Shown piece by piece: positions 12,556 through 34,880 of a stretch of 64,000 bases of DNA. A program made the translations under genes and the position numbers. The notes under the pieces are model-generated. The model worked only from the letters and a program-made list of their open reading frames with translations. It was not told where the DNA came from and made no database searches. Every line of letters starts with the position of its first letter. The stretch's first letter is position 1. Location of the stretch: assembly GCF_037975245.1 (NCBI RefSeq), contig NC_092576.1, positions 42,847,611 through 42,911,610 on the forward strand, written 5' to 3'. Source of the stretch: Apostichopus japonicus. Lineage: Eukaryota; Echinodermata; Holothuroidea; Aspidochirotida; Stichopodidae.

Positions 12556-12560
12556 TTTTG

Positions 12561-13612
12561 TATCTTTGGGGCGTTCCAATACACCCCAACCAGTTAAGTG
12601 TAGCAATACACCACTATGATAAATTGTATATATCTTTGGGGCGTACCAGTACGCCCCAACCAGTTAAGTGTAGAAATGCGCTTCTATGATAAATTGTATT
12701 TATCTTTGGGGCGTACCAGTACGCCCCAACCAGTTAAGTGTAGCAATACACCACTATGATTAATTACATATATCTTTGGGGCGTACCAGTACGCCCCAAC
12801 CAGTTAAGTGTAGAAATATACCTCTATGATAAATTGTATATATCTTTGGGGCGTACCAGTACGCCCCAACCAGTTAAGTGTAGCAATAGACCACTATGAT
12901 AAATTGTATATATCTTTGGGGCGTACCAGTACGCCCTAACCAGTTAAGTGTGGAAATGCACCACTATGATAAATTGTATTTATCTTTGGGGCGTACCAGT
13001 ACGCCCCAACCAGTTAAGTGTAGAAATATACCTCTATGATAAATTGTATATATCTTTGGGGCGTACCAGTACGCCCCGCCCCAACCAGTTAAGTGTAGCA
13101 ATAGACCACTATGATACATTGTATATATCTTTGGGGCGTACCAGTACGCCCCAACCAGTTAAGTGTAGCAATACACCACTATGATTAATTATATATATCT
13201 TTGGGGCGTACCAGTACGCCCCAACCAGTTAAGTGTAGAAATATACCTCAATGATAAATTGTATATATCTTTGGGGCGTACCAGTACGCCCCGCCCCAAC
13301 CAGTTAAATGTAGCAATAGACCACTATGATACATTGTATATATCTTTGGGGCGTACCAGTACGCCCCAACCAGTTAAGTGTAGCAATACACCACTATGAT
13401 TAATTATATATATCTTTGGGGCGTACCAGTACGCCCCAACCAGTTAAATGTTGAAATATACCACTATGATAAATTGTATATATCTTTGGGGCGTACCAGT
13501 ACGCCCCAACTAGTTTAGAGTAGAAATACACCCCTATGATAAATTGTATATATCTTTGGGGCGTACCAGTATGCCCCAACCAGTTAAGTGTAGCAATACA
13601 CCAAGAAAATTG
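12561..13612. repeat. 70-bp minisatellite with 20-bp palindrome per unit
   Basis: About 15 head-to-tail units of 70 bp. Units start near 12561, 12631, 12701 and so on to about 13553. Two units carry a 6-bp insertion that duplicates CGCCCC. Each unit contains GGGGCGTACCAGTACGCCCC, an inverted repeat with 9-bp arms and a CA centre, then AACCAGTTAAGTGTAG. Only the first unit has a damaged palindrome. Long open frames over the array are by-products of the repeat. Confidence 0.95.
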
Positions 13613-13714
13613 TGTGTGTTTCTCAAAACTACATATCTTCTTTTACACAAGTTGTTGCAAGAAAATAAGAGTACACACTGCCCAATCAATAGTATGTGTA
13701 AAACATAAGGTTTC

Positions 13715-13921
13715 CTAGTTATTCAGCTCAAATTCTTTATCTATAGCTGCATATCTTTCTTTCAAGTCACAGACTTCCCTCTTTGGAAGGCGATTTTTAT
13801 GGGTTAAATTAAAGTCCCAGAACATTAAGGAATGGAAAGAAACTGATGGTGTGTATGGCTGCTTATTTCTTCCTTGGCCACAGTCTAGCAGTTTCCAGTC
13901 TCCAGTCCAGGATCCCTTCAT
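13715..13921 (-). other. Possible 3' part of DUF7869-type relic
   Basis: A 68-codon minus-strand frame directly downstream of the 13946-14345 exon relic. It includes KGSWTGDWKLLDCGQGR and FHSLMFWDFNLTHKNRL. Its composition is protein-like and its position fits the C-terminal part of the same decayed gene, but I cannot match it to a specific domain segment. Confidence 0.25.
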
Positions 13922-13945
13922 CCAATGTAAAATAACCTCATCCTT

Positions 13946-14345
13946 TTAAATTTTAGTGACTTCTCCAAAGTATGGTCGTGTGCTTGAATCAATGAGGTTT
14001 ACGGCTGCTATATACCCAACTTTAATATAGTCAGATACTTCAATAACTTCTTTGGCAAAGTTATAACATTTATATATATCACCACTCTGAAGATCTTCAA
14101 CTCTAAAAGCAAGGAGCAGAAGGGCAGAAGGGCAGAAGGACAGAAGATAGCGGTTCTTATTCTCCCTGTAACAATTATCCATTTGCAAAAACAGATCCTT
14201 CCCAAGAGTATCCTTGTGCTTCACTAGTGTCCACAAATTGCATGTAATGGTCATGTTTGAATCATGTTGGATATGCTTCAGATCAGTCATAACATATACC
14301 TGTATGCAAACTTGTCACATGGACCTTTAGTGTGAATTAGGACAC
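13946..14345 (-). pseudogene. DUF7869-type gene relic, conserved core exon
   Basis: Minus-strand exon-like block with a good acceptor (TTTCTTTTCAG) just above 14345. The first part reads GVLIHTKGPCDKFAYR in one frame and the rest in another, including KHIQHDSNMTITCNLW and LFLQMDNCYRENKNRYL. The pattern GV..H, H(D)SN, then LQ.DNC.RENKNR is the hallmark of DUF7869-type proteins as I recall them, a family abundant in cnidarian, hemichordate and echinoderm genomes with no assigned activity. A frameshift near 14295 breaks the frame, so this is a decayed copy. It follows the block at 14889-15042 across an intron of about 540 bp. Family membership is from memory. Confidence 0.5.
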
Positions 14346-14889
14346 CTGAAAAGAAAGAGAAGAATGAATATATACTACTTCATTGACATGTATGATAAAG
14401 AGGTTGTTATTACTTGTTTTCTGCTATTAAATAAAGTTTGATAATTAACCTACTATGTGCTTTAACAAAAAAAACACAGTCACATAATATTTGATGGATA
14501 CTAAGGCCATTATCTTTATCAGAACAACAAATAAAGAACAGAATTGATTTGACCTCAACCAAAACAATAGGAACACTAGACTTCTTGTAACCTTAGGTGT
14601 CCATCCTTATACTACTTATGAAGATAATCAAACTTCCCCTCTTGAGACACTGTGTTGTAAAACAAGGCATCGTACAAACAAACACCCTGTATAAACACCC
14701 ACACACACATGCTGCTCACGCACATACATACTGTACTATACACCAACATGACATCACAATTTCATACTGTAGGATTACAATTTCTCGGAAACCAGAAAAC
14801 GTGATGTTTACACTTATAATGACATAAACACTTTCCGGTCACTTCATAATACCATGGAGGTAAAACAGACCTCCATGATAATACTGACC
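14345..14889. other. Intron-like gap within the DUF7869-type relic
   Basis: Sequence between a clear donor (CAG/GTCAGT on the minus strand at 14889) and the acceptor at 14345. It contains short CA/TA-rich stretches and no other feature. Confidence 0.4.
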
Positions 14890-15042
14890 TGTTATGTGGA
14901 TGTGGATGTTTTACATCCTTATCACTCTGGACAAAATGTGGCAGATCAGTCTTTGATTGGTCCATTCCATCGACTATAAGGGTATTCAGTTCCAAAGAAA
15001 CCTGGCACGCCTTAGTGCGGGCAAGATGTTACTGCTCTCCTT
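14889..15042 (-). pseudogene. DUF7869-type gene relic, DGMDQSK exon
   Basis: Minus-strand exon-like block ending in a consensus donor (AACAG/GTCAGT). It encodes LNTLIVDGMDQSKTDLPHF followed by VQSDKDVKHPHPHNR. The DGMDQ.KT..PHF motif is what I expect immediately upstream of the DNC.RENKNR core in DUF7869-type proteins. An in-frame TAA lies near the start of the block, unless an acceptor just before it is used. Joining this exon to the next does not keep the frame, which supports loss of function. Confidence 0.5.
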
Positions 15043-15352
15043 TTGACCTAGTAAAAATAGAACATATTATGATACAAAATAAACTCTTAACTGATACAGG
15101 GTTTACGATATCAGATAAGAAATATTGATTTGAGTTTTGATCCAATATCATTTGAGAAATAATGTAAATGATATATGGGTCAATCCATGCCAAATCAACA
15201 GATTTTTGGGTCGATTCCACGTCGACCCTCTTAGAATCGCCTGGAAATGATATGGTGTCTTGCCATATGTCTCAAAGGATGAAATTGGGCAAAAAAAAAA
15301 TTTGAAAACTTTTTCGTTGCTAGGTTACGACCCCGCCTACTGTAGCAACCAA

Positions 15353-16548
15353 CTTAAAGTGGCGAAAATGAGAGTTACATCAGCCCTACAGAAACATGCT
15401 TGCGAGGGCAAACAGTGGTAACATTGTATCTTCATTCAAGGAGACCACGTAAAACAACATTAGAAACTATTGAAATGTTATTTATTAAAAGGGTTCTGTC
15501 TAGTACTCTTTGACTCCCTCTCACCCCCCCCCCCCAACACCCTCCCCATAGTGCACTATGCAGATTTGTATGCATATATGTTACTGAATTTTAATACGGC
15601 AAAGAGACTGCATAAACATGCATTCAAGGTATACTGAATTATTTGGTAAGGTAATCTTCTGCTTCAAATTGTCTGTATGCATGTAACTCACCCCCTTCCA
15701 ACCAAAACCTCTACCCAACCCTATATCAGATTAGAATATGAATGTGAACCAGTGCATACATACAGTGTGCACTATATATGTGTGTATCATATGTGTATAT
15801 ATGTGTGGTCATTCCATTCAATACTGTGCATATTTCAGTATCATTTTAAATATTTGCAATTTAGTGTATGCTTTTGCTAATTCAATAATTAAGAGACTTT
15901 CAATAATTTCAAAGGAATGTTTAACCAGTACATAAATGTGCAGTGTGTACTGTACATGTTTTTGGACAGTGTTTGTTTAATAGTAATTGGTGTAGAATAA
16001 CACTGTACTGAACATGTACACACATATATAGTGCAAAGTGCATATTTCAATGTCTTTTTAAATATTTGCAATGTAGTGTATAATTCTTTTGCTAATTCAA
16101 TAAATTAAAAGACTTTCAATAATTTAAAAGGAATGTTTAACCAGTAAATACATGTACAGTGTGTATACTGTTCATTATCTTGGACAGTGTGTATTTAATA
16201 GTACTTGGTGTAAAATAACACTGTACTGAACATGTACACACATATATAGTGCACACTGTGGACCATACCAATAATTCAGTATACCTTGAATGCATGTTTA
16301 TGCAGTCTCTTTGCAGTAAAAGTCAGTCACATACTGTATGCATGTATTCAAATATGCATAGTGCACTATGGGGAGGGTGTGGGGGGGGTGGAGTCAAAGA
16401 GTATTAGACAGAACCCTTTTAATACATTTCAATAGTTCTTAATGTTGTTAGCATGATCTCCTTGAATGAAGATATAATGTTACCACTGTTTGCCCTCGCA
16501 AGCATGTTTCTGTAGGGCTGATATAACTCTCATATATGCCACTTTAAG
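15353..16548. repeat. 1.2-kb fold-back (long inverted repeat) element
   Basis: The left arm, about 15353-15653, is complementary in order to the right arm, about 16262-16548. Matching blocks include CTTAAAGTGGC / GCCACTTTAAG at the outer edges, the CAAACAGTGGTAACATT block, the GGGTTCTGTCTA block, CATAGTGCACTATG and GCATAAACATGC. Arms are about 290-300 bp with several indels. The roughly 600-bp centre is internally duplicated. No transposase or clear target-site duplication was found. It sits in what would be an intron of the DUF7869-type relic. Confidence 0.85.
15828..16255. repeat. 212-bp tandem duplication in fold-back centre
   Basis: Two adjacent copies (about 15828-16039 and 16040-16255) share long blocks, including GCTAATTCAATAA, AAAGGAATGTTTAACCAGTA, TAACACTGTACTGAACATGT and CACACATATATAGTGCA. 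They have diverged by small indels and substitutions. Confidence 0.85.
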
Positions 16549-16559
16549 CTGCTCTCCAG

Positions 16560-18790
16560 AGCATTAATAACTTATATAAAATATGATTTAGCACATTCTT
16601 TGCATCATAACTATACATATCTTACTAGTTTGTATTGAAAACCAAAAATAAAACTTCTAATTGTGACCAAATTTGACCTTGAAATGCCCAAAATAGCTGT
16701 TCACAGACATCGTTCGACATCTATGACCCTGGAAATGCAGTTTATTTGTAGTCCTTATGCTAGTGGACCACCCTCTTAATTGTTAAGCACCTGTATGCTA
16801 ATGCTAAGAAGTTGTTGTCATTTGAATTACTCAAATCAGCTTGTGCAAGCATTTTCATACATATGAACGAGGTGATTTTCGCAATTTTCGAGTCAGAAAT
16901 TTGAGTAGATAACACAAAATACACAACTTTTTTACTTGAGTTTCTAAAAATAGTGTCAATACGCTCCTGAAAAATGGTATTTAAAAAAAAAATTGAAATA
17001 TACCCACAGGCCCAAAATGGACCCCCCAATTAGGGCCAGAAGTGAGATTTCTTAAGTTTGAGGGCGCTGTTCATAAAACGTACCACCCACTTGACTTTTT
17101 TTTGCACTTTTCCCGTACAACTACTACTGGGCAAGGATCCTATGGAAATTAAAATTCAAACATGCCTTTGCTTGTGAATATAGAGCACACTCAGAGTAGG
17201 GCCAGAAAAGGCCCGGGCTATCTCATTTTCTGCCATTTTAATTACTTGTTACGAAAACTTGAGACCGATCCAATGACCTTTCTCTGAACTTTAGGGTTTA
17301 TCATCTTAGTTAGGGCTACTATATCCAATTTGTAGTTCAAGCAAGTTTTTGAAAGAGATAAGTGTTAACTAGGAGCATCACTGACACACCCACACATATA
17401 GAGGACTTGAAGGAATAGTCTTTCTATTGCTTTTGACTTCTGCAAGGATTCAAAAAGGAAAGCAGACATCAACTTTTAATTCTAAATTAGTAAAATATTT
17501 TGACTCACTTAAGATGATTAAGATGAACTTCTTGCAATTGTCGGCATTCTTCATTTTCCTTTCCACTCCTTGTTCTTTCCGCTACCTCTTTCAAGTACCA
17601 CTCACAGTAAACTCAGTCGTCTAGAAAAATATAATGTTGAAATACTTTAATTAAGCATTTAAAGTATAAGTTTTACTTCACACAATGGTGTAAAATTGAA
17701 CTGCTTAACCTAATCAAGAAAAAGTTATGTAGTGATTAGTGATAGAGTTTTATTGTGTCAATTTGAACCATGTTGTTTTCATGAATACCCATAGAATAAT
17801 GCAATGAGCATGTTGAAATTTTTTACTAATTATAACTGAAGTTAAGCATTCTTTTAGGTACTTTAGAGAATTCCTTTAAAGGAGTATAGGGTGTTGAGAG
17901 TAGCTAATTGAGAAAAGAACAAGTAAAGCTGTACAACATCTTCTCATGTTATTTATTAGACCAATTGATAGGGATGTTTGGAAATAAGACCCTAATCATT
18001 TTCCCAGACAGTTGAGGTAAATGTCCTCAAAGGTGGAAATTAAAACAATTAAAGAAGTTTGACCAAAGGTAAGCATTTTTCAATTTCTGGCATATTTGGG
18101 GGAACTTTCTGAAAATGTCACTATCTAAGGGAGTTGTTCATTGACATTTCAGCAGAAAGCACTTTTACTCCTGATTTGAGTGGAGGTTGCAATCAAACTT
18201 ACTGTATGTCACATGTTCTTTAGAACTACTTTAAATCAAAATTTTTGACAATAATTCTAATGTTTTTAAGGAATGATAATGCAGCTTTAGTGGTACACTA
18301 GCTGTGAGGTGTATTCTCTCCAGTATGTACAGTACAGTCTTTGTGCTTGCTGAAGCTGAAGCTAACAATAGAGACACATGAATTTTTCTGAAGAGATGTT
18401 TAATGGACTGCACATGTAGTTAACTAAACAGATTAAATGTCACTGGATTGTATGAAGTTAAAGCCTCCATAGTCAGCAAAGAAAAAAGGATGCAATGCCT
18501 GTGGTTTTGACACCCCGGGCTATAACCCACCAATTGTGATTGATCAGCAGACCATGTACAGTACTTGAAAGTTATCATTTGTAATGTACACAGCTATTGT
18601 TTGTGTGATAATTCTGGCAAAACAGTCTTACAACAGCACTTTCGACCTCACAAGTTTCAGTATACTTTATCAATGTCTTTATGCTAGTTAATCAATTTAA
18701 AGCTACTAGCTATGAGGAATTTGAAATTTTATTCCCCTTTTCCCATGCAATGTATGCAACAATAACTGTCATAAATCCATGCACATTCAC
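16560..18790. other. Intergenic or intronic, no gene recognised
   Basis: AT-rich DNA with only short open frames. It may be intron between parts of the minus-strand DUF7869-type relic. No repeat or RNA gene was recognised. Confidence 0.4.
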
Positions 18791-18802
18791 AAGATAAAAT
18801 AA

Positions 18803-19398
18803 TTAGGAATCTTGAACTCTTCTAAAGATTTCCATAAAGTATTCCTTGGAAATGATGCTTTGTTCACCAATGCCAATTTCTATCATTTCCTTCTTCATGC
18901 GTGCATGGAGAGAAGTCTTTGTGTATGACACTGGAAGGTGCACTTCTGTTTTGTGGGGCATGTAATCTCCAATATGTTCAAATAAACACCTCACCCAAGC
19001 TAGTGCAAATGGAGTTTTTGTTCTCATCCTTTTCTTGCCTTTATTGCCATGAATTGCATTTTTCTTGCCAACTTGAAATTATTTCAGACAATCTTTGAAT
19101 AACTTGCTACTAATACCAAAGAACATACAAAATGCTTTCTCACATACAATCTTCCCACAAATTACATAAATAGAACAAGATTTGTCTCAGGTGTGACATG
19201 ATCTTTCCTGATGAATCCAAATCTTGTCCTGAGTGAATTGCTTTAGCTCAGTTTCCCTCACTTCACTAACCTCTAGAAAAGACTGTTCTAGGTCATCGTA
19301 AGAAAGCGATTTGATACAGCTACCATCACAGCAATCAGATTGGAACATAGGCAGAGGATCAAATGCTTGATTGCGTCTCCTTCGTTTTATCTCACTCC
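18803..19398 (-). pseudogene. DUF7869-type gene relic, N-terminal exon
   Basis: The minus-strand block starts after a strong acceptor (TTTTTTTTTCACCAG, just above 19398) and stays in one frame for about 590 bp, interrupted only by a TGA near 19190 and a TAA near 19085. Readable segments in order are FDPLPMFQSDCCDGSC, LKQFTQDKIWIHQ, IYVICGKIVCEKAFCMFFGI, GNKGKKRMRTKTPFAL and VHLPVSYTKTSLHARMKK. The order of a CC..C motif, VC..AF...GIS, HG.KG and HLP matches the region upstream of DUF7869 as I recall it. One frame with two stops suggests a recently lost gene copy or a transposon-carried gene. Confidence 0.5.
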
Positions 19399-19399
19399 T

Positions 19400-21040
19400 G
19401 GTGAAAAAAAAAGGTTTTGATCACATGAAGAAATTGATGCAGAAAATTCTCTGGCAATACCAAAGCTACTGCTACTACTTCCATTTGAACTTATGTCAAG
19501 GTACAACCACAGCGAATCATTTGTTGTATCTGGAGAAATAGTACTGATGTTGTGACTCACAGTGACTGCCCCATTCAAACGACAGTGAAAGTTTTGTTTT
19601 AGTATGATTATTTAAAGTTGGTTCCTCTTCCAAATTTTCCATTTCATTATCCATGCTCACGTTCCTTTTAAGTGTATAAGGTAGGGATGTATTTCCCTTG
19701 CTTTTGTGTGGAGATGAGAAAAGAGTTGGCTCAATGTCCAATTTGTCAGGATCATCCTCTTTACATTCTGACAGAAAACTGGTAATTTGTTAAAATTTGT
19801 AAGGTTTCCTTCACACATTTTGTTTCCCATGTAAGTGGAGCACAATGACAAATGAGCACAACTAAATCTTCATTTACTCAGCTGCACACCACAATAATAT
19901 GAGCCATGAATGTGAAACAGTATCCAAAGGCATGCATTGAAAGAGTAAGTCCTCAGAGCATGACCACTGCTTAACAGTTTTACTCCCTTTCTGTGGTTAA
20001 CCCTGCTTTTGAAGACTGTATATATTCACTGTTGGTTGCTGCAGTATAGACTGCCTTACACTGTGATATGAACTGGCTAGGTGTCATATGATCCTTTATT
20101 GACACACTGTTTGACCACAACCAAAGGGACAAAGTTTTCAGGTTTTATTTCCACAATGGAGTTGCAATCAGGCAAGACAATATTGTTGTGATTGATTGCT
20201 TCTGAGGTTAGTATATACTTTATGCAGACTGTGTAGCCCTGTTATGAAATCTTGCACATCTGTGAGGTACTGTATGTGGATGTATGGAGGGAGAGGACTT
20301 CTCAAATGTCAGTATCAATGCTGCAATGTTGAAAAGTGAATTTTTAGTTGACAATATTTTGTCGAAATGGTAGTGTTCTACCAAACTTCAGTACAACTTG
20401 TAAAAAAGGACAAAACTCATTAACTTCAATAAAATAGCCTGACCTTCAATAATTTTCCTAGCCATTGGGACACAGTCCCTAGTTCCCACAATCACACATA
20501 GTGAGAGCAACAAATGTGAGTAAAAATCTGCACACTGGACCATGCAGGGACATATATATACCAAAACTGTTATTTATGTTTTTTTATTTTTTTCTTGGGG
20601 GGAGGGGCATGTTTGTAACTGGAAAAGCCTGAAATAAATTATAGCAATATGCACCATGTACAGTATGCAATAATGAAGTATATGAGCCTATTTGCTGCTA
20701 TAAAGATTAAATTTGAAAATTAGCACTTACCTAAGTTCTTAAATCTGTTCTTGGACTTGTGCTTTTATACAAGATCCAGATCAGATCCTCTGATTTTATC
20801 GGACGATCATCTCTCCACGGGGTAAACTGATGCATTGATCCAGTCGCATTTGCACTCGAGCCGTACTATGGATCTGATCCTTGCCCGGGCCGGTAAAAAA
20901 TTCGGATTGGAAATGTGTCATTCGCAGCCGGAAATCGCGTACTAGTAGTACATTTGGTCCAAAACTTTCGTTTTCAATGTTCATAGCCTAGGCTAGAGTG
21001 ACAATGCTACGTAAGATGCATAGGTCAGTTATGATTATTA
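19400..21040. other. Upstream region of the minus-strand relic
   Basis: Short minus-strand frames near 19387-19851 are Ser/Thr/Asn-rich and could be an N-terminal low-complexity exon of the same gene, but they overlap in different frames and cannot be assembled. The rest, up to the Harbinger fragment, shows nothing I recognise. Confidence 0.3.
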
Positions 21041-21047
21041 TGTTGTA

Positions 21048-21308
21048 TTGTATCGACGATGGTCAGGAATTCAGGATGCAAGCTTTTTACGAAAAACACC
21101 CGATTTCGAAGAAGAGTTGACGATAAAAATCGTGTCAGTATGGACGCTAGCAACAAGTGTAGAATTTAAAACGATAGGCTCAATATTCGGAGTTGCCCTG
21201 GGACAGGGAGTACAACGTATGTGTCATAACACACGCTGTTTTTGTGCGATTACACTTACAGTATCTACTGTACTACCAGGGAGTTGTAATGGGTTGCGGC
21301 ACAGCTGA
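21048..21308 (+). pseudogene. Harbinger-type transposase fragment
   Basis: An 86-codon frame contains VSVWTLATSVEFKTIGSIFGV. It resembles the helix-turn-helix part of PIF/Harbinger (HARBI1-like) transposases, whose usual pattern is (A)V.L..LAT..EYRTI..LFGV..ST. The downstream VQRMCHNTRC then fits the C.IVH..C segment with an indel. The DDE catalytic region is absent, so this is a short, non-functional remnant. Identification rests on remembered family patterns. Confidence 0.5.
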
Positions 21309-21373
21309 TCTGTCAATCACTTAAAACTAGTACGGGGTGGCCAAAGGTCATTTACGGTTAGCATAATAATAAT

Positions 21374-21880
21374 CAGGGTTACCAGCGACAAGTAACAAAA
21401 AAACGTTAGATTTGCCAAAATAAAACCCCAGAAAACGCTAGATAATCAGTTTCACTCACTTGTTATGTGTTGTTTTCAATAATTCGTTGACTGTTCGTTG
21501 CACTGATTCATATCATAGGCAGTCTAGTGATTATTTTAACAAGTTAAAACGGTTAATAGCAATCAGGAAATAATACAAGAAAATTAACTGTGGATTTTAC
21601 AAAAATACTGATTCAGTCCTAATGAAAAACCCAAGTATGAAAAACCCATTAATATTAAAGCAGTTCACGCGGTATTATAGTGTAAAAGCCACGGAAGCCA
21701 ATAAATATATTTTATTGGGTTGCCAAGTGGTAATTTGGTCTCAAAGTTTCAGAAAACAAAGTAATTATTTTGTGAATTACCGATTTGGTGCGATTTTTGA
21801 TAAAACGTATGCTGGAATCCTAGAAAGGTGAAAAAATACGCTAGATCTATTGTGTGAAAAGGCTAACGCTGGTAACCTTT
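21374..21880. mobile_element. 507-bp hAT-like non-autonomous element
   Basis: The left end CAGGGTTACCAGCG and the inverted right end AAAGGTTACCAGCG match at 12 of 14 positions. The flanks ataataat (21366-21373) and ataatagt (21881-21888) match at 7 of 8 positions, as expected for the 8-bp duplication made by hAT transposases. CAGGGTTACC-type ends are typical of that superfamily. A 69-codon frame inside has no transposase features. Confidence 0.65.
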
Positions 21881-21889
21881 ATAATAGTA

Positions 21890-23190
21890 CTGTAGTAGAC
21901 TTGTTTAGTTGTACTGTGTAAAAATATGCACTATGCGGAGTTCTCATCAGTATTACTTGTCAAACACACATGCATGCCTATAGTCTTATTTGTGTTAGGT
22001 TAGCCTTTCTGTAGAAGTATTCATTTGTGGTTTACATGGATACATTTGGAAAATGTCGCTTTCACTTGTTTGTAAACAGTAGCACGGTGGGGTATGGGGG
22101 CAGGGGCATGGAGATCTGCCCCACATCGATGCTAACCCCAGCTCCCAACGACTTTGCTGATCCTATATAAACAACGGTCGACCTGACCACCTCCCCCCCC
22201 CCCCTCCCCACCCAAAAAAATAGCTGCATGCTTGTAAGATAAATTATGGTATATTTTTTTTCAGCCAGCTTGTGATCATAACATTAAAATCACTTGCTAT
22301 AAAGAATATCATTATATCCCCACCCCCACCCCCGCCTCACCCATACACAAACACATACACATTTCTGTTGCGACAAGTCCATTACAATATAGTCCTAGCC
22401 TACGGCGCTCAACCCTCCGATTTTCTACAGCCATAGCTATTTTCACTTAATTAATCGCACTAACATTGACAATACATTTAAAGCCTCCTAATGTGGCAAA
22501 ATACATCAAACTTTCATGATAATTTTGGAAAACAGTAAAATGCTTGTGTCTAATTGATAGGGTTATTTTAATTTTGTTTGGAGCATAATTATACAAATTT
22601 ACCAATTTACTCTGTGCATTGTGATCAACTCCTAGCTGAATCATGTTACTATATAAAGGAAAATACCTAGTCTCCAACAAAAGAGGGAAAAAACATATTT
22701 TAGCAACAAGATGGAATAGAGGGCGTACTTTTTTGCGACGTGGAAAACACACATATCTCTGGATCTAAAGGTGTTACAAAATCCTCCTTTACATATGTCA
22801 TTGTCATTAACACAATTAAAAAGATGGGTAAAATTCAAGGTCATATGTATCAATTTGAGAAAAATATCATGTATACATTTTACAACCAAAATTGTTTATT
22901 CGCCGACTCTAGGCATATACTCTCATTTAGGATTTGTTCACATTCAGCACTTCTTATTGATTAATATTTTCGGAAATAAGATTGGAAACTGATATGCAGA
23001 AGTTATACACAAAATCTATCACATTTAGGGTTGAGGATCTCGCCACCACCTATAGTTAGTGATGTATTGAATTCGTATAGATTATGCCCGCACGTCATTG
23101 AGATTTAAATTTTGTAATTTTTGTGAAATAATATGTGATACGGAAAAACAGATGTACTTCGGGTTCTTCATCCATCATTACTGTCCTCTT
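21890..23190. other. Intergenic, no gene recognised
   Basis: Contains a poly-C run near 22190-22205 within pyrimidine-rich sequence and a CA-rich patch near 22320-22360. Short open frames on both strands lack recognisable features. Confidence 0.4.
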
Positions 23191-23194
23191 TCAT

Positions 23195-23536
23195 GTAGTA
23201 CAGGGGGGGGGGGGCACATCACTTACTTATGGAGGCACAATGTGTATTGTTTAATGCCGTCCTGGGGGAGGGGTGATAGGGGAGAGTTCTCCCTTCCACT
23301 TTGTGAATTTTGGATCAATTTTAAGGGTCCTCAGATGCAATCTGGTGCTATATTTAGCAACTTGAAGTAATTTTCGGGCTTGCATCTGTCCAATATTGAT
23401 GTTTTTAATTTAGGCAAATAAAGATTTTTGTCTGAGTATTTTTGTTAACACTACAACCGCATCTGAAGGGGAAGGGCACCTGGGGCACGATTTTTTTCAG
23501 GCCCCAGCCCCCCCCCCCCCCTTCGGCGACGCCACT
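23195..23536. mobile_element. Partial GC-ended element related to the 46974-47325 MITE
   Basis: The sequence from about 23255 shares ordered blocks with the 47-kb MITE: CCTGGGGGAGGGGT, then CTCAGATGCAAT and TGGTGC. It ends in poly-C followed by GCGACGCCACTG at 23536, the expected right-end type. A matching left end and target-site duplication were not found, so the left boundary is uncertain. Confidence 0.4.
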
Positions 23537-23539
23537 GAT

Positions 23540-24325: not shown

Positions 24326-24333
24326 CGTACACT

Positions 24334-25638
24334 CAGGGACGTCGCTAGAGGGGTGGGGGTGTCTCACACCCCACCCCCAATGTTTGTAAAACTGATGATA
24401 GTTGGAAAATTTGAGTGCGACAGTCCGAATTTCTGACTGTCTCACTCTAATTTTTCCGACTGTCGCACTCTAATTTCATATATTCTTGTAATTTGTGAGT
24501 GACCTACAATTTTCGGTCAAAATTGACCTTTAATCAGTCATATTTACCACGTTTTCCGTGTCACATTTAGAAATTGTATCTCGCGATCTTTATACTCCAC
24601 CATACAAAACTTCGTGTGATTTTGAATACTGTAAAAAAAAATGCCTAATAAAACTACTGTACAAATACGATAAAAACGCTCAATGCTTATCTACGGAAGC
24701 TTTAAAGTGCCATCAACATGAGAAAAACTTTGCCCCATAGGGTGAAATTTTTCAGTAAATTGTTTAGATAACAAGATAAAATCTTTAAAAAATAAGAAAA
24801 AAAATGTTGGATTGCTTAGTTGCTTTAACTGAGCAATTGAACAATTTTCTACAAAATGATTAATTGACAACTTATCATATCTCGTGAATTGGACATTTTG
24901 CTGCAAAATGTTCAGTTGTTCACTTCATTCCATCTGAGCAATGAAAAATTTTCTGCAAAATGTTTAATTGACAACATATCTTATCTCGTCAATTGAACAT
25001 TTTTTGGCAAAATGTTCAATTGTTCACTTTATTCCAATGGAGCAATTGAAAAATTTCTGCAAAATGTTTAATTGATAACTTATTGTATCAGTCGTCAACT
25101 CAACATTTTTCTGCAAAATGTTTAAGTGTTCATTTCATTCCAAATGCTCAGTTGGAATGATGTGAACAATTGAAATTGTTTTCATGCAAGTGATAAATAG
25201 CCCCCCCCCCCCCAAGAAAATAATATTAAGCGCGCTAGGAAAAAGCACTGTATTTTGTCGAATATAATTTGTTGAAAAAAGGTTTTCCCCTTTGTAACAT
25301 TAACATAGCTTTTGTAGTTAGTAGTCTATGTAGCCTATCAAGCAGATAACTCAACTCATTTGCTTACCCGCTTAACCAGAGTGATTAATAAGTTTGTGAA
25401 GTGAGGGCCAGTGCTACAAATGTACCGCAAAAAAATTCGGAACAAAATTGCAGTCGCGAAAGATGGGATGTCTGACTAACACTGACCGTATCGTTCACGA
25501 GTAGTGCGGGTTGGGGGGGGGGGGGGGTTCAAGTCAGCAGTCGGAATTTTCTGGCTCCAAAACCCATCCAGTTGGAATTTCAGCCACTGCATTCCCTCCC
25601 CCCCCCCCCCCCAACTTCAGGCCTTAGCTACGTCCCTG
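24334..25638. mobile_element. 1,305-bp hAT-like non-autonomous element
   Basis: The left end starts CAGGGACGTCGCTAG and the inverted right end CAGGGACGTAGCTAA. Both are directly flanked by the perfect 8-bp repeat cgtacact (24326-24333 and 25639-25646). The interior has poly-C runs near both ends and a block of roughly 105-bp tandem repeats, but no transposase. It must depend on an enzyme supplied elsewhere. Confidence 0.85.
24815..25165. repeat. 105-bp tandem repeats inside the 1,305-bp element
   Basis: Three to four diverged units share GAGCAATTGAA, TCTGCAAAATGTTTAATTGA, CTCGTCAATTGAACATTTT and TTGTTCACTTCATTCCA, spaced roughly 100-110 bp apart. They resemble subterminal repeat blocks seen in some non-autonomous DNA elements. 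Confidence 0.75.
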
Positions 25639-25892
25639 CGTACACTCACTTTAAAATTGCAAGGGACAACCTAAATACTATACAACCCTGTTGAATACTA
25701 AAAATATCCTAGTGGGAATGTGTGATAGTGAGTAATGATGTAAAATTTGTTGTACACATAGGTTAACGTTTCATTTATCTGTTCTTCAGGAATCACACAA
25801 TAACAGAAATTCAATGATATTTAACGGTAACGGGTCTAAGACTATAGTCAACTATCCCCATTCCCTCTTTTGTGGTATGTTATTTACATTTT

Positions 25893-26255
25893 CTATTGTG
25901 TACTTTGCAAAGAGGGCAATTATGTAGGTGAACAGGCTCCCGGTTCCGCTTACGTTTTAGTAATCACAAATAGTATATTTCGTGATAATTTGATCAGATT
26001 CCCCGTTTCCGAACATTTCAATCTTCATAGACATTCTCTCAAAAACTAAAAATGTATTTTAATTACCTCGAACTTCAAATTCGCTACTGAACGTAAACGT
26101 AAAGAAATCGATTGGATCTTTCGTATTAAGTCACCGGCCTCGACAAAGACTTGGGACCCCTTAAGTGCCTTAACAACTATCAGTTCTACAAACATGTTAT
26201 CCGTTCTTTGCTCATTCATCCGCTTCCTGTATAGTCATGGTTTATTTGGTTTTTA
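25893..26255 (+). pseudogene. Penelope-like element GIY-YIG endonuclease relic
   Basis: The plus-strand translation gives YCVLCKEGNYVGE, then after a frame change TGSRFRLRFSNHK, then back to DNLIRFPVSEHFNLHRHSL, and later RKEIDWIFRIKS. The order C..C...YVGET, RFR.R...HK, PV.EHFN...H, (R)..E..WI matches the GIY-YIG endonuclease that follows the reverse transcriptase in Penelope-like retroelements. At least two frameshifts and later divergence mean it is dead. The reverse transcriptase is not seen upstream, where the hAT-like element ends at 25638. About 400 bp downstream the text GAAGAAGAGCTAGTTTTGCTCG recalls Penelope 3' ends. Confidence 0.65.
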
Positions 26256-26470
26256 ATTCCATCAATGCAACTTACACTTATCTAGCGTCAAACTTTCATT
26301 GTGCTAGTATATTTTGTACTTTTCATTCGACTGCCAAGTATTGCCAACGAAGGCCCCAAGGGGACCGAAATTCTAATATATTTTCTAAAACTTTACTCCT
26401 TATTTGTCAATTATGAGTCATCTTATTTCTCTGGTTTTCTATAATAATAATAATAATAATAATATATATA

Positions 26471-26540
26471 TTATTTTAATCCGACGGACAATTACGACGG
26501 AATCGGATTAAAATAATCCGACGCGGATTAAAATAATCCG
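26471..26540. repeat. Short inverted repeat TTATTTTAATCCGA
   Basis: TTATTTTAATCCGA at 26471-26484 is inverted at 26503-26516, and the arm core CGGATTAAAATAATCCG, itself nearly palindromic, recurs at 26524-26540. A TAA microsatellite directly precedes it. Confidence 0.85.
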
Positions 26541-26740
26541 AATTTCTAAAACTTCTGCTCAATTCAGCAGAAATCAGTAAGTCGCTTTGCCTTTACAACT
26601 TTGCCGACATCTTCTCTATAAAATAGTTTCAATTCCTGCTACTCCTTGTCACTTTCGGTGATCATGCACTGAAGAAGAGCTAGTTTTGCTCGAAAGCTCT
26701 GCAAAAACCAAACATTGGCTGTTTTACTTCCAATCACTTA

Positions 26741-26906
<166 letters not shown>

Positions 26907-26914
26907 TGCAGCCT

Positions 26915-29715
26915 TATTTTTAATGAAATGCATCATATATTTTTTTAATGCAGCTTCTTTGTTATTCCCATCCATCCATACCTATACACGTACATGCATT
27001 GCATACATACATACACTCACGCATGCACACATGCATACACCATGGAGGGAAAACTGTTTTTACCTCCAATTTACCTGTTTTTTTTTTACCTGTTTTTGAC
27101 CTCCATGCATACACATACTGGTAGGTATATAAATGATCCTATTCCCCAAACACACTGTTTTCATTATTTACAAACTATAGTTCTAATTAAAGGCTAAGGC
27201 CATGGCATGTCGTCAACTTAAAAAACGTTAACCTTCATTTCCTGTGTGAGAGAACGCAACGTGATAGGAATGATTACGTAATATAATCTTTCATCGGCCC
27301 TCTCGATGTTGACCGCAAACGTGGAGATGTTCAACCAGACTTTGTTGTCTTTTTTCTACCACAAACATCCGCACTATTATTTGATATCGTAAATTTTCAC
27401 TGTGGTAGTTGCATACACATACGTATACGTTTGTTAGACCAGGGAGTTGTTCAGACCACCAACGTATTTATACCCTGACAAGGTTAGACTGCTCATGCAC
27501 GGATGCACCAAACGCAAAATCGTAGAGCCGAAGTTGCGAAAAAGTTCGAAACGCCTAAATAATAATTTTATAAAATGACGAGACCAAGAAATTGGTGTGT
27601 GGCAGAGGAAGACTTATGATTTTTCTTTTTTTCGGACTTGTCCGGACTCTACTTTTGGAACCAAAGAGCCCTTGTCACCAATTACATGAAGATTCGAAAT
27701 ATACCGCTGATCCCAAACAGCATTAAGGTGAGGAAAATTTTTGGACTTATTTCCGTATAATGAAATATATTTTGTGTTAAGAATAACCAAGTGGAGTTTT
27801 TGTTTCTTGCATGTATATGGGTATGCTTTTAAAATAAATTGAAAGTGCATAGCCAATCGCCCCAAATCATAGCACGCTAAAATTGCTAGGCGTTTTCAAA
27901 AAGTACTTTCCTGGAAGCATTCACTCTCCATTTGTTCTCAAATATTCTAAATGAACACCCAAAGCCATTCTTACCAAGGAAGTGATACTTCCCATGTTCG
28001 TACACTACTTGCAAGTACAACTTTCTCAGACAAATTATTCCATAACCCTCTGAGAATAAAAAGGAGTTTTGACAAATATATGGTACTTATAACTTCTGGT
28101 GTTTAAGACATTGATCTCTGGTAATTCTACTTGGCAAACCTGAAAAGGTCAGTGAAGGATAAAATGTCTAAACCATACCATTCTTGAAAACCCGAATCAA
28201 GTCACCGCGTAATTAACCGACCTATAACCTCCATTGTGGTGGGTTAACTGTCAGAATGCACATTATCAGTGTTTTTTATCTTCATACAGAACTGACATCA
28301 ACAGTGAATACTATTGTTCTCTGACTCGAGTCAAAGGACGCTTGAACCGCAGTGTGCTAATGTAACTGCCAAGCGTAACTTATTTGTGATTGCAGGTGTC
28401 CAACCGCAGTGTAGACAAGCAATTAACGATATACCTTGAATTCGAACTTCTTCATGATCTGTCGTCATATTTTGTGTATTACTATTTTTAAGTTGTTCAT
28501 GCAAACACATAATGGACACCCTATACATTGCTCTAGACTGACTTTGACGAAAAACCGTCCGTGTCATGTAGTGTGGCTTGTCTACAACCCAAACTGATTA
28601 GAAAAGATATTTCAATCAATTCTGACTTGATTGTGAGTGAAAAAATGCTACTTGAAGCAAGTGCAATAACAAGCAAAGCTGACAGCCATTTAACAAGTCA
28701 ACGAGTGACACTCCTGACGGTTTCTACTACTACAATCTGTTTCTGTGATATTTTCCGACGAACAAGAAAACGGCGACCACAGTCGCGTAGTAACATACAA
28801 GTGCTACCTCCTTAAGCTTATATTATGTACGTACGTGAATTTGACATAAAACTTGAGGGTCAAAGGTGAACAAGTGAAGTACACTACATGATGTGAGTTA
28901 GTATTAAACGTTAGGCCTACTTCAAGTTGATTCAATGACTAGGATATACCGGCATTTTAAATTTATTATTCCTCTCGACAATTTACGGTACAATTAAAGG
29001 CAGGAGCCCAGGAAGTTATTGACCAAGCGATTTTGCCAATTTTTTGACAAGTTCGGTTCGTTGTAATACGCCTCAAATAGAACTTAGAAGAAAAGGGGCC
29101 TCTACGGGCTCTAACTTAGGCCCTAGGTAGCGTGCACACTATTTCTATACTGAAGTCTGTGTAGGCTAGGTCACAACATCAAAGGTGAGTCCTAATTCGA
29201 TTGATGCTTCACGTTCCTTAACCTTCAGCTTTCATTTAAAAAAAAACGTGTCTTTGTTGTTTGCACCTACAAATCTGTTAAAATTTCGTAGAAAATAACA
29301 TTGTCACGTCCAACTCCAACTCCAACCTAGCAAGAGCTAGGCCCTAAGCCTATTTAATCAGTGAAGCCAGGATAGTGTTAACATATCAAAATTGTTAAAA
29401 CGTGAAGTGCTCCTAAATCCTAATTTCGTTCCTGTTGTCGGCTACTCCAAAATCCTAAAAGTTTATTGCAACTATATAATTAGTTTTGAATCAATATAAT
29501 ATAGTAACAAGGAATATTATTGCTTCAGAGACTGACATGCACCAGTGCAGTAAAATGTTTACAGTCTTCAATTTCATGGGGGTGAAAGCCTCATGTGTAC
29601 CCCTTCTCCCCTCTGGGTCAGACATTGGGCCAAGATTGGGGTTGAGATATTGGAGTCCAAGGACACTAGCATATTATCATATTCAGGTTTACTAACTGCT
29701 CTTTTCCACTTTAAA
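26915..29715. other. Intergenic, no gene recognised
   Basis: AT-rich DNA with scattered short open frames (for example minus 27614-27865 and plus 28561-28815) in which I recognise no domain. A CA-rich stretch follows the (TA)n. GTAGACAAGC at 28409 and its inverse near 28576 form a weak inverted pair. Confidence 0.35.
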
Positions 29716-29719
29716 ACAG

Positions 29720-29862
29720 ACCTTCAACATCAGGAAGTAAAGAGAAAAGAAAGGCTCAGCACAAGTTACATGTGCTTCACAAATAGAGGAAGAGTAATAA
29801 GGATCAGCCAGTTGTCAGCCCTTTAGAATTCATCAAGAAGGAAGTTAATGCAGCATTCTTAG
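29720..29862 (+). pseudogene. ParB-like gene relic, exon A
   Basis: A 143-bp block lies between an acceptor (TTTAAAACAG) and a donor (TTCTTAG/GTGAGA). It encodes PSTSGSKEKRKAQHKLHVLH, one in-frame TAG, then SPLEFIKKEVNAAFL. Splicing to the next exon keeps the frame exactly (the split codon becomes Gly), which argues that these are genuine former exons. The Ser/Lys-rich start looks like a linker ahead of the ParB-like region. Confidence 0.45.
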
Positions 29863-30654
29863 GTGAGAACCCTTAGAAGCTGTCAGGTACGGTAGCAGTA
29901 CAATATACTGCCTCAGGAATTGGAACTGTTGTGGTTTTAGAACAGGGGGCCCCTACTAGCCAGATTGAGCATGCCAGACAATCTAATCTGGCCCACCAAA
30001 AAACAAAGGGAAAAAAAAACCCAACCCTTTTGGTTCACCAATTTACTGGACAAAAAAAAAAATTGAAGAGAATTTGAGTAAGCGTTAATTTTCAACACGA
30101 AAAAACATTGATAAAAGTTTGTCCTAGATGCTAAAACAATCATCTTCCATTTTCAGCAATCTATTTTTGGCCTTTTGTTAGTCAAAATTTCCTCCTGTGG
30201 CTACCATGGTGGGCCCGCATACTGTATGAGTAATATTCAGCAACCCACAACTAAAAGGACAGTAGGCAGCTGTTAAATTCATTTTACATCAGTTTCTGTG
30301 CAGTGTCCTTCATACTGAGCCATCTGTATGCCTCCTACTGCATGCCCATTAAGAACTGCCTCAACTGCTGACTTTTCACCAGAAATTTACAACATCAATA
30401 GAAGTATCAGTTTTTATTTGAGTGTTATCGGGGAGGGGTCAGAACCCCATTAATAATGTGTTCATTAATTGAACATTGCTTTTCAACATACTTTAACACT
30501 CATTATAGTCACTGTGTACATTTGGTTTGAATAGTATTTTTAGCTTTACAAAGTTTACGGAAAACATTTTGCATACCAACATGTATGGCATTTCCCTGTC
30601 AGTTGATGTTAGCTTTGCAGAAATTTACTTACCATCGTTTTTACTTCTCCACAG

Positions 30655-30829
30655 GTGTTGCAAATATTGACATAGAAAATCTGGAAGTTGGTCGGAAGTT
30701 GAGAGAAGTGAATGTGTAATTTCTCACCAAACTAAAAGAGGCTATGTTAGAATTTAACAACCACAATATCAACCACTGACTGTTATAGCAACAACTTTGG
30801 AAAACTTGGAGAATTTTTCAGAACCCACG
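30655..30829 (+). pseudogene. ParB-like gene relic, exon B
   Basis: A 175-bp block between an acceptor (CTTCTCCACAG) and a donor (CCCACG/GTGAGT). It starts VANIDIENLEVGRKLREVNV, then a TAA, then FLTKLKEAMLEFNNHNI. After a frame change it reads LTVIATTLENLENFSEPT. The flow 'vgr.lR.vn...v..Lk.ami.....pltVi' is that of the first part of a ParB/sulfiredoxin-like domain. One nonsense codon plus a frameshift make it non-functional as it stands. The end frame of this exon matches the next exon exactly. Confidence 0.5.
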
Positions 30830-30929
30830 GTGAGTAATCAGCACTTGATTATAAAGTGATTTTTATAATGGAGTGCTTCATAATTGTTTATCAAAAACCA
30901 TGCAGCAGTGACTGCTTGTGTGTGCATAT

Positions 30930-31800
30930 GTGAGAGAGAGATGCCTTAGCTCAAATTTTGAAAACTTTGATAATTCAACAAGTGCAATATGCATGAAGTT
31001 CATACTTGGTAGAAAGCTACCCCTTAGCAAATTCTCAGCTGCAATTGTTATTTAATTGCCAGTGGTCAACAGTTATAAACCCCATAAATGACCTTACTGA
31101 AGTAAAGGTTAAGTGAAATTAGTATGCTTATCCCTCAATCGAGTGCTTACCACTTGCTGTTACTTAGTTTGCAAAAATTGTTTGAGGTCCACACCACCTA
31201 AAAATCTGAAACTTTGTTAACAGGTTATCTCACCATGTACAGCTTACATATAGTTCACACTTTGAACAATTAGAAGAATGTATTCGGTATCTACCACCTT
31301 AGTAAATTCTTCACTGTTATTGCTTTGGGAGGGGCCAAAGGTCATATGAGATAACCAATGGTCTAAACCTGAAAACTCTGTGAATGAGCTAAGTCAAAGA
31401 ATAAAGCTACATAGAATGTCAAATTTGTTCCTCTGATTGAATACTTGCCATCTATAATGTTAACTTTTTTGAGGTCAAATGTCATTTGAGGTACATTTTA
31501 GTTAAATTCTGAAAACATATCTCACTAAGTACAGCTTGCATGAAGTTAATGCTCAGTATGAAGACACTCTTAGTAAATACTCAGCTGATAGTGTGTTGGG
31601 AGAAGTCAAGGTCATTTGAGGTCACTAGTGGTCAACAACTGACAACTTTTCTAGCTGAAGAAGTGAAGTTTTGGTAAATTTCAAATTTGATAGGAATTAA
31701 GCATTTGTCTTCTTTTTTTTTGGCTGTTTCGGTCAACGTCACTCAAGGTCAGTTAATTTCAGTCTGAAAAACTTCTTGAACATGGTACCTCACCATGCAC
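30930..31800. repeat. Degenerate AGGTCA-rich tandem repeat in an intron
   Basis: Diverged units of roughly 130-160 bp repeat phrases such as AGGTCATTTGAGGTCA, CATGAAGTTCAT, and TAAATTCTCAGCTG. AGGTCA half-sites, as bound by nuclear receptors, occur several times as direct repeats. That makes them possible binding sites, but they are more simply the consensus of an old minisatellite. It lies between two exons of the ParB-like relic. Confidence 0.6.
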
Positions 31801-32192
31801 ATGGCAATATTAGCCCTAGACAAGAAGAACAACATGAACAGATCTTTTACTTGACATGTGGATTCCTACATACATCATAATATTAAAAACCTTTGAAAAC
31901 ATGATAACTCAGGGTTGTCCACACCATATCTTTGAGTACACATTTAGTTCTCCTTTGCTAATAGTTGCAAGAGATTTTTTTTCCATTTCACTGTGGATCC
32001 CATGTACTCAGTAGAACTCTCCCCTCCAATGCCCTACAATAACAATAGGCAAAGGAATCACTAAGCCCTGTGGCTTTCTGTTTGCATGTCAATTACACCT
32101 GATCTTTGAGGACAAAAGTCTGACATTACGCTACTTTGACTTAAGTTACTGATATATTCATTTTCACATTTTGTAACAAATTTTTCTTTCAG

Positions 32193-32303
32193 GCAAATGG
32201 ATACCATTATGAAGTTATTGGTGGCATCCACAATCTGACAGCCTGTAAGGAGCTGAGAGAGAGAAATCCAGACAAGAATGTAAAGATACAAACCTTTGGT
32301 TAG
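32193..32303 (+). pseudogene. ParB-like gene relic, exon C with G-G-x-H motif
   Basis: Following TTTTTCTTTCAG, the block encodes ANGYHYEVIGGIHNLTACKE, then LRERNPDKNVKIQTFG, ending at TAG 32301-32303. A GTTAGC donor-like site lies at 32299. The Y.VI.G.HR..A...L pattern is the signature of ParB/sulfiredoxin-like domains; here N replaces the usual R after H. I recall similar uncharacterised ParB-like proteins in marine invertebrates, some presumably transposon-linked. No ligand or activity can be assigned. Confidence 0.55.
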
Positions 32304-32309
32304 CAAACA

Positions 32310-33755
32310 AGCACATCAAAATAGGGGAAACCAGGCATCAGATGAGCATTGAGGTAAAGGTGACTACTATGAATTTTGTTTTTATAGAAGAATTTTTGCC
32401 GAGCAGTTATTCATCTCATTCCTCCATATTGTATATTCAGGTTGCAATGACCTATGCATTAAGACATTGAAAGTGTGTATGGAAAGTCCTTGTCTACACA
32501 TAACACATAACTTTGTGTTGTGCACACAGAATCGCTCTCTTACAGTATGTGAATTTTCAAATAATTGTTATCTAATCACTCTCATAGGAAGGATTAGGTA
32601 CAATATTGTAGTTCCTTTGCAAGTTGGACCATTAACAGTATTACGCAACAGTTGCCATGGTAGTGGTTAGTTTTCCCAATAGGGGTCATTCATTGTGGGG
32701 TATTGCATGGTCACCGGAAGTGTTTGACTGAGGGAGGGGTAAAAGTTGTCTGTGTGGGGTGTCCAATTTTATGTCAAACAGTCCTCTTCAATGACTGGGT
32801 TGATTTTCTTAAAACTTGGTATGAAGGTGTTTTAGGGTTAAAGTCTATGTCTAGCAGACCCCCCCCCCCCCCCCAGAAACATAGGTCAAATGTCACATCA
32901 AATTAAATTCAATGTTTTAATTCAATATTACTCCAAGGGGACACATTACATTCAAATGGAATCTTCACTTGTATAATGGGAACAACATGTAGGCTACTAA
33001 TACAGGCAGAAATGTGACCTCTGTCATAGTATTACTCAGATTGTAGAGGACAGCAGAGTGATAGCACTGCAATCATATGACAGTATAGTTCTGCAAACTT
33101 ATCATATCAAAAAACATTTGCAGTCTTTGTTCATTTGTTTTTTTACTATCAATGCAACAGATAAAAAATAAATAAAATGGTTAGACTGTCAGTGTAGAAT
33201 AAAGTTTTATTTCTCTCTTTTTTTCTGAAGATGACACAGAAATGCTCACACTGAGTCTGTTTGGTCTGGCCATTGCGTTCAAGAGGAAAACCATTGCAAG
33301 GAAACTTTGATGGGATGATGGCACAGAACTTAATGTGACTATTGTTGCTAGGGATGATCCTAGATCACAGAGGATGAAAAAAAAGTTTATAGCACTGATT
33401 AAAAGAAGCGTATTGATTTTGGTGAAGGTCAAAGGTCATTTGGGGACAACAGGGAGGTTAATTGTCTTGTAGGGTATATGTGTTCAGGAAGTGGCAACAC
33501 TGAAACAGCCACATGGTCTTCTACTCTGCAAATCCTAAAATGCTTGTTTTAAGTGTGTGTGAAATAAAAAAGGGGGGGGAGGGGGGGTAAGGTTACAGTG
33601 ACTTTCTCTTATTATTGTATTTTTTTGGTGAAAAATTATTAGTAGGGGTATCAGTATGCCCATTAGAGCAATCTGAGAGTCTGAATAGTACATCCTTCAG
33701 AACTGCATTGTAAGCCACTTATTGTTGTTATTAATGATGTAATTTCTTATTGCTA
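32310..33755. other. Intergenic, no gene recognised
   Basis: Contains a poly-C run near 32861-32874 and a G-rich run near 33571-33588. A plus-strand frame after TTTTTTTCTGAAG near 33231 (DTEMLTLSLFGLAIAFKRK) might be a further exon of the ParB-like relic, but a stop follows soon and I cannot support it. Confidence 0.3.
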
Positions 33756-33759
33756 ACTG

Positions 33760-34880
33760 ACACTCCGAGCAGTAGGGGGTGTATCGGTACGGACTTCAGA
33801 ACTGCATTCTTAGCCACCTAATGGTGTTATTATGTTATTTCAGAACTAATGGTGTAACTTCTTGGTGCTAAATGACACTCCAACCATTAGCGGGGCGTTT
33901 TGGTACACCTCTCAGAACTGTTTTGCAAGCCACTAAATTTTGTTACTTCTTGGTGCTAAATGACACTCCAACCAGTAGCGGGGCGTATTGGTACGCCCCT
34001 AATGGTGTTAGTTCTTGGTGCTAAATGACACTCCAACCAGTAGCGGGGCGTATTGGTACGCCCCTTAGAACTGTATTGCAAGCCACTAAATTTTGTAACT
34101 TCTTGTTGCTAAATGACACTCCAACCAGTAGTGGGGCGTATTGGTACGCCCCTCAGAACTGTATTGCAAGCCACTAAATGTTGTTACTTCTTGGTGCTAA
34201 ATGACACTCCAACCAGTAGCGGGGCGTATTGGTACGCCCCTTAGAACTGTATTGCAAGCCACTAAATTTTGTTACTTCTTGGTGCTAAATGACACTCCAA
34301 CCAGTAGCGGGGCGTATTGGTACGCCCCTTAGAACTGTATTGCAAGCCACTAAATTTTGTTACTTCTTGGTGCTAAATGACACTCCAACCAGTAGCGGGG
34401 CGTATTGGTACGCCCCTTAATGGTGTTAGTTCTTGGTGCTAAATGACACTCCAACCAGTAGCGGGGCGTATTGGTACGCCCCTCAGAACTGTATTGCAAG
34501 CCACTAAATGTTGTTACTTCTTGGTGCTAAATGACACTCCAACCAGTAGCAGGGCGTATTGGTACGCCCCTTAATGGTGTTAGTTCTTGGTGCTAAATGA
34601 CACTCCAACCTGTAGCGGGGCGTATTGGTACGCCCCTTAGAACTGTATTGCAAGCCACTAAATTTTGTAACTTCTTGTTGCTAAATGACACTCCAACCAG
34701 TAGTGGGGCGTTTTGGTACGCCCCTCAGAACTGTATTGCAAGCCACTAAATGTTGTTACTTCTTGGTGCTAAATGACACTCCAACCAGTAGCGGGGCGTA
34801 TTGGTACGCCCCTCAGAACTGTATTGTAAGCCATTAATGGTGTTTCTTCTTGGTGCTAAATGACACTCCCTTGCAGTTGT
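33760..34880. repeat. 88-bp minisatellite with palindrome per unit
   Basis: About 14 units. Palindrome starts are at 33892, 33980, 34045, 34133, 34221, 34309, 34397, 34463, 34551, 34617, 34705 and 34793, with degenerate copies at each edge. Most steps are 88 bp and three are 65-66 bp, where a block of about 22 bp (AGAACTGTATTGCAAGCCAC) is missing. Each unit has GGGGCGTATTGGTACGCCCC, with 8-bp arms and a TTGG loop, preceded by CACTCCAACCAGTAGC. The palindrome is nearly the same as in the 70-bp array at 12.6-13.6 kb. Confidence 0.95.

Follow-up and report, generated by a model that had tools for sequence, protein, structure and literature searches.

A Palindromic Box Common to Two Otherwise Unlike Minisatellites in Apostichopus japonicus

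In the holothuroid Apostichopus japonicus, a stretch of 64,000 nucleotides (assembly GCF_037975245.1, contig NC_092576.1, positions 42,847,611 to 42,911,610 of the forward strand; hereafter the window) holds two minisatellite arrays, A1 and A2, whose units differ in length and in nearly all of their sequence and yet carry one and the same 20-bp palindromic box, identical at 19 of its 20 positions. Each array stands at the outer end of a CpG-depleted segment, an arrangement that is new beyond the initial annotation of this DNA. We tentatively favor the reading that the box is a palindromic protein site present at the 3′ ends of two genes and amplified there by ordinary repeat turnover, although we would give it somewhat less than an even chance. 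Common descent through a mobile element or a duplicated segment, duplication promoted by hairpin-prone DNA, and a role of the repeats in RNA are weighed against it below.

The box and the two arrays

A1 extends from 12561 to 13603 or 13612 and comprises 15 copies, 14 of them full units and one partial, with its predicted sense on the minus strand; twelve of the full units measure 70 bp and two measure 75 bp by insertion of GCCCC. A2, with its predicted sense on the plus strand, had been described as an array of 88-bp units, which is the length of eight of its 12 clean units, the others being of 87 bp (one) and of 65 or 66 bp (three). The array also reaches from about 33640 to 34893, a different extent from the one given earlier, with decayed units at both edges (three decayed copies, near 33645, 33778, and 34870).

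In predicted sense the box is GGGGCGTACTGGTACGCCCC in A1, for example at 12638-12657 (minus strand), and GGGGCGTATTGGTACGCCCC in A2, for example at 33980-33999 (plus strand). The palindrome had been reported as perfect and as present in every unit. The exact box is found in 12 of the 15 A1 copies and in 9 of the 12 clean A2 copies, and the palindrome is imperfect in both arrays: in A1 the arms are 9 bp long around a central CA (11 bp if the flanking TT and AA are counted), and in A2 they are 8 bp long around TTGG. Read in predicted sense, and thus on opposite strands of the window, both boxes match GGGGCGTAYTGGTACGCCCC and agree with each other at 19 of 20 positions, their sole difference being central; in the other relative orientation, on the same strand of the window, agreement falls to 17 of 20, with three differences.

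Such agreement is well beyond the reach of chance as measured by shuffling. The best 20-mer identity between an A1 unit and an A2 unit is 19, whereas the maximum over 1500 paired shuffles was 17 and none reached 19; assuming a hairpin of equal arm composition in both units, identical arms arise by chance in 0.3% of cases. The original observation of two arrays with a near-identical 20-bp palindrome is thereby confirmed. Allowing at most three mismatches, 50 matches to the box occur in the window, where none was expected, and all of them lie inside A1 or A2; no isolated copy outside the arrays was found within the 64 kb. Among prokaryote contigs the box occurs in six, at one site each, and among viral contigs in one, where the 601 bases around it contain a single palindrome and no repeats of it; by rough estimate both counts are near chance. 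A text search of the literature with the box and core strings on both strands returned no occurrence, and the listings from topical literature searches contained nothing naming this box.

Outside the box the two units are dissimilar. Once the box was taken out, neither local nor global alignment, on either strand and at several gap costs, gave significant likeness between the unit remainders (p 0.09 to 0.92 over 12 settings), and a profile search with either array recovers the other mainly by way of the box. Whole-unit homology of A1 and A2 was rejected, as the alignments are significant in neither orientation. The earlier statement that the remaining sequence and length of the units differ is sound, and these tests do not bear out the contrary possibility raised with it, namely that the arrays are a single repeat family of which one has diverged. 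Likewise, the word AACCAGT had been noted in both arrays and is indeed common to them, giving the top same-strand local score (14), but it is unremarkable: 340 of 1000 shuffles reach that score and the word is found at seven other sites in the window, so that it is weak evidence of relation.

A weaker second hairpin, AGTGTAGCAATACACC, is present in A1 at 12597-12612 and in four more units; in these 5 of the 15 units, by post hoc comparison, it differs from the box core at no more than two positions. The 70-bp unit of A1 may be an old dimer.

Variation among copies

The initial annotation had proposed that selection maintains the hairpin and had also named the observation that would speak against this, namely a palindrome eroding at the same rate as the rest of its unit. 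In A1 the palindrome does vary less than the remaining unit (4 of 280 positions as against 42 of 700; p 0.001). Its 23 adjoining positions are, however, similarly quiet (7 of 322), and variation is concentrated in one 27-bp block (35 of 378); in the first A1 unit the box itself is altered at three positions. In A2 the palindrome varies at 5 of 240 positions and the remainder at 29 of 748, with no significant difference (Fisher p 0.22). Five A2 edge units, two of which are among the 12 clean ones, retain identity at 74 of 93 palindrome positions as against 257 of 307 in the remainder, so that at the edge of this array the palindrome decays as the unit does. Further, the box changes counted in 3 of the 15 A1 copies and 3 of the 12 A2 copies, ten in all with the three decayed A2 copies omitted, include none that is matched at the partner position. 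Protection of the hairpin copy by copy through selection is thus not supported. A stepwise ancestry of the loop through CCAG, TCAG, TCGG, and TTGG, as read on the plus strand from the edge copies, was also considered and was dropped because comparison on opposite strands requires one change only.

Each box contains two CpG dinucleotides, of which A1 retains 28 of 30 and the clean copies of A2 retain 23 of 24, although the segments around the arrays are strongly depleted of CpG, as detailed below. Three of the ten scored box changes strike a CpG, and the decayed A2 edge copies are without most of theirs. The retention fits either young, homogenized copies or protection by a putative bound protein.

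Array position and competing explanations

Two CpG-depleted segments were called in the window by a two-state model with the arrays masked: segment 1 at 12101-20800, with a ratio of observed to expected CpG of 0.23, and segment 2 at 29501-35100, with a ratio of 0.14, as compared with 0.83 to 0.89 elsewhere in the window. Their borders are stable within 250 bp across two bin sizes and three transition rates; with the alternative bin size the borders of segment 1 move by at most 100 bp and the left border of segment 2 becomes 29251. The inner borders are sharp and lie at CpG-rich stretches, 20751-21250 for segment 1 (28 CpG in 500 bp) and 28751-29250 for segment 2 (21 CpG in 500 bp), each of which would represent the first exon or promoter side of a transcription unit whose body is the adjoining segment, the first unit running on the minus strand and the second on the plus strand. 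A strong splice donor is directed into each of them, AG/GTAAGT at 20725-20732 on the minus strand (intron start 20730) into segment 1 and AG/GTGAGT at 29183-29190 on the plus strand (intron start 29185) into segment 2, where the latter is also the only site of the form [AC]AGGTRAG. At the far ends, two AATAAA signals (12137 and 12185, spanning 12137-12190, minus strand) mark the distal end of segment 1, and an ATTAAA at 35199-35204 (plus strand), about 100 bp beyond the distal end of segment 2, is a candidate polyadenylation signal only; further plus-strand AATAAA signals stand at 33563, before A2, and at 35460, after it. From this pattern we infer two divergent genes, each ending in or just before an array, with methylation as the likely cause of the CpG loss.

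A1 sits at the left end of segment 1 and A2 at the right end of segment 2, that is, at the outer end of each. Of random placements of two such arrays, 0.05% had both at distal ends, each of a different segment, 1.4% had both close to some segment end, and 3.0% had both inside the segments. Placement at a downstream end would fit in both of the two cases if the predicted gene directions hold, but one donor pattern in segment 1 runs the opposite way and the comparison is post hoc.

In the reading we favor, the box GGGGCGTAYTGGTACGCCCC, in predicted sense, would already have been present near the 3′ ends of two divergent, germline-methylated transcription units, and two separate minisatellites would each have grown around it. 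The box would most likely be a site for a sequence-specific DNA-binding protein, recognized as duplex DNA by a symmetric dimer, and the bound protein would act at the ends of the units, the box there being a boundary, termination, or regulatory site. Array growth would require nothing unusual: unequal exchange and slippage would multiply whatever sequence adjoined the box, and therefore leave unrelated spacers, homogenized interior copies, and decaying edge copies. In keeping with the predicted direction of segment 1, a piece matching the DUF7869 domain (13949-14314; Pfam E 3.3e-17) lies on the expected minus strand, and the AATAAA signals lie at the distal end.

A number of observations weigh against this proposal. 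At its distal end, segment 1 grades into its surroundings. Counting both strands, the window has five AGGTRAGT sites, two of them the inward donors, a number not in excess of that in shuffles (mean 3.4), so that only the placement of the donors is informative; moreover, the sole [AC]AGGTRAG site of segment 1 is at 18069 on the plus strand, the wrong one for the predicted direction. The DUF7869 piece contains an in-frame stop. The AATAAA at 33563 precedes A2 and may leave that array outside the transcript, and the 13 plus-strand frames of segment 2 that were compared with Pfam, of 28 with at least 38 amino acids, gave no match above the cut-off. The placement tests were formed after the pattern had been seen and need to be discounted accordingly. 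Decay of the box in edge copies keeps pace with that of the remainder, which speaks against strong selection on each copy, and the retained CpG sites may reflect only the youth of the interior copies. Finally, a sequence match downstream of both arrays, described next, would fit common descent equally with a shared site.

Descent is the rival to which we give the most credence, although it too is doubtful: the box and its arrays would have been carried by a mobile element family, for example of Helentron type, or by a duplicated segment. Satellite-like arrays within Helentron-type elements are described in two sources (PMC7492417, PMC5139131), and a third presents Helitron-linked satellites of Caenorhabditis as multiples of one palindromic decamer across species (PMC4595182). 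The DUF7869 piece lies some 340 bp from A1. Further, a 39-bp stretch at 11922-11960 (minus strand), about 600 bp downstream of A1, is 79% like one at 35295-35333 (plus strand), about 400 bp downstream of A2, both in the same predicted sense. This match (E 1e-4, with a core of 19 bp containing one mismatch) lies outside the CpG-poor segments; its score was reached by none of 150 shuffles and none of 120 other window pairs of equal size, although some dozen flank comparisons were made, of which it was the best. It might mark a further shared site or be a remnant of common descent, and it led us to raise our estimate for descent slightly, to lower that for the protein-site reading by a similarly small amount, and to take a trace from each of the other two explanations. 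The initial suggestion of a common origin or a binding site finds its backing in the box itself. Against descent, Helentron-type ends and isolated copies were not found in the window. A scan for perfect inverted pairs of at least 10 bp between the 700-bp left and 250-bp right flanks gave no sub-terminal inverted repeats of 11 to 12 bp, with one 10-bp pair at A1 and none at A2, and the right flanks (13604-13860 and 34870-35140, plus strand) contain no palindrome with perfect arms of at least 7 bp, one of which is present in the left flank of A1 (12521-12537). The remaining flank matches are short and AT-rich: one is 28 bp long, and 2 of 150 shuffles scored as high; the other is a 21-bp inverted pair around A1 (7658-7678 and 14010-14030), equaled by 2 of 100. 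Duplicated genes were rejected as a source, since outside the arrays segments 1 and 2 have no DNA match better than E 0.18; at the protein level the best among the matches listed has E 0.010. These comparisons speak neither for nor against A1 and A2 being the two ends of a single 22-kb element: among the outer and inner flanks the 39-bp outer match alone was conspicuous, and although its inverted arrangement on the window is the one expected of element ends, it is short and lies 400 to 600 bp beyond the arrays.

The remaining explanations do without descent. Hairpin-prone DNA might itself promote tandem duplication, with the likeness of the boxes due to chance or to one local duplication, which we regard as improbable. 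This idea of hairpin-driven amplification, also put forward in the initial annotation, gains mild backing from an inverted repeat at p <0.05 (uncorrected) in three of the six minisatellites with at least three copies, including an unrelated one at 24827-25143 (for the seven test rows that contain the A2 box, p runs from 0.010 to 0.100), and palindromes have been proposed as aids to satellite growth (PMC4595182). The other three minisatellites, however, have no significant inverted repeat, and the use of the same letters twice is left unexplained, with 19 of 20 positions identical where the shuffle maximum is 17 and identical arms at 0.3%. Still less probable is a role of the repeats in RNA, as structures of a 3′ untranslated region that bind a protein, are edited, or retain the transcript in the nucleus. 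Both boxes do have the orientation of the predicted sense strand, and single units mostly fold better than their shuffles, but the z-scores favor the predicted antisense strand in both arrays: for A1 they are -4.0 to -4.2 in three plus-strand units and -2.2 in one minus-strand unit, and for A2 -1.7 on the plus and -3.75 on the minus strand. When the full arrays are folded in predicted sense, 25 of the 27 box hairpins have a mean pair probability <0.4 and two reach 0.4, presumably as copies pair with one another. The lack of partner-matched changes and the poly-A-like signal ahead of A2 likewise count against an RNA role, as does Rfam, which gave no match at the gathering score; permissive searches returned 13 and 1 matches, all far below gathering, to microRNA and U1 models.

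Neighboring features, related systems, and implications

In the DUF7869 piece beside A1, the in-frame stop is followed by a further open frame (13718-13945, minus strand), and because of that stop the copy is probably decayed. Pieces resembling one decayed DUF7869 gene extend over 13718-19869 on the minus strand, of which Pfam confirms only 13949-14314, and an 8-bp tandem repeat lies among them at 14111-14146. Also within segment 1, an 85% inverted pair (15350-15652 and 16262-16551) flanks a 218-bp tandem duplication (15826-16253) in which AACCAGT occurs. Between the segments, the minisatellite at 24827-25143 has units of 52 and 104 bp and is built on another inverted repeat, whose arms include CAATTGAACATTTT and AAAATGTTCAATTG. 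The window begins with a 179-bp satellite (3-2376; 13.3 copies, 93% matches), and a repeat some 100 bp long, which may be a short interspersed element, is dispersed in both orientations at 3466, 4304, 5988, 7692, 39035, 39370, and 45605; a 400-bp inverted pair (39307-39707 and 45375-45753) overlaps it. Two minus-strand open frames lie toward the right end of the window. One of 532 amino acids (53277-54875) had no match in Pfam, NCBIfam, or PDB at the thresholds used and is reminiscent of NXPE-type proteins; the other, of 180 amino acids (57331-57873), had none in Pfam or NCBIfam and resembles the tail of a non-LTR (long terminal repeat) reverse transcriptase.

Among known systems, the closest are the Helitron-linked satellites of Caenorhabditis built on the palindromic decamer AGAANNTTCT (PMC4595182), with HSF-1 binding reported at Helitron repeats (PMC6765114). 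There as here, tandem repeats of differing length have one short palindrome in common; in contrast, the box sequence is unrelated to the decamer, a Helitron end was not found here, and the present arrays stand at the ends of CpG-poor segments. By our own identification, the Caenorhabditis decamer presumably fits a transcription-factor site. In bivalves, PMC5139131 describes the BIV160/Cg170 group and phBglII400 as diverged monomers with common short motifs, the array junctions of phBglII400 being located in a palindrome; the monomers are treated there as one family, whereas A1 and A2 have only the box in common. The Cg_HINE elements of the Pacific oyster carry short satellite-like arrays dispersed genome-wide and have flanking sub-terminal repeats and a right-flank palindrome (PMC7492417), neither of which was found around A1 or A2. 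As for the segments, PMC4378273 describes mosaic gene-body methylation in invertebrates as rising past the start site, filling the body, and dropping past the end, a profile that the CpG pattern here fits; the passages on this do not connect it with tandem arrays at the ends of genes.

A bolder extension of the protein-site reading, and one we consider a long shot, is that box arrays mark the downstream ends of methylated units in this genome more generally. Bound by a symmetric protein, they would serve as boundaries or terminators and keep transcription and methylation from spreading, and the box would recur from gene to gene in minisatellites that are otherwise unrelated. To our knowledge, what sets the borders of methylated gene bodies in mosaically methylated animals is not established. 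Were the box to mark gene ends, it would provide a concrete sequence for boundary or termination activity, and minisatellites of this kind would be reusing a protein site rather than being inert. If repeat turnover alone should prove to be true, A1 and A2 would still be a clear case of two otherwise unlike minisatellites with one common 20-bp box.

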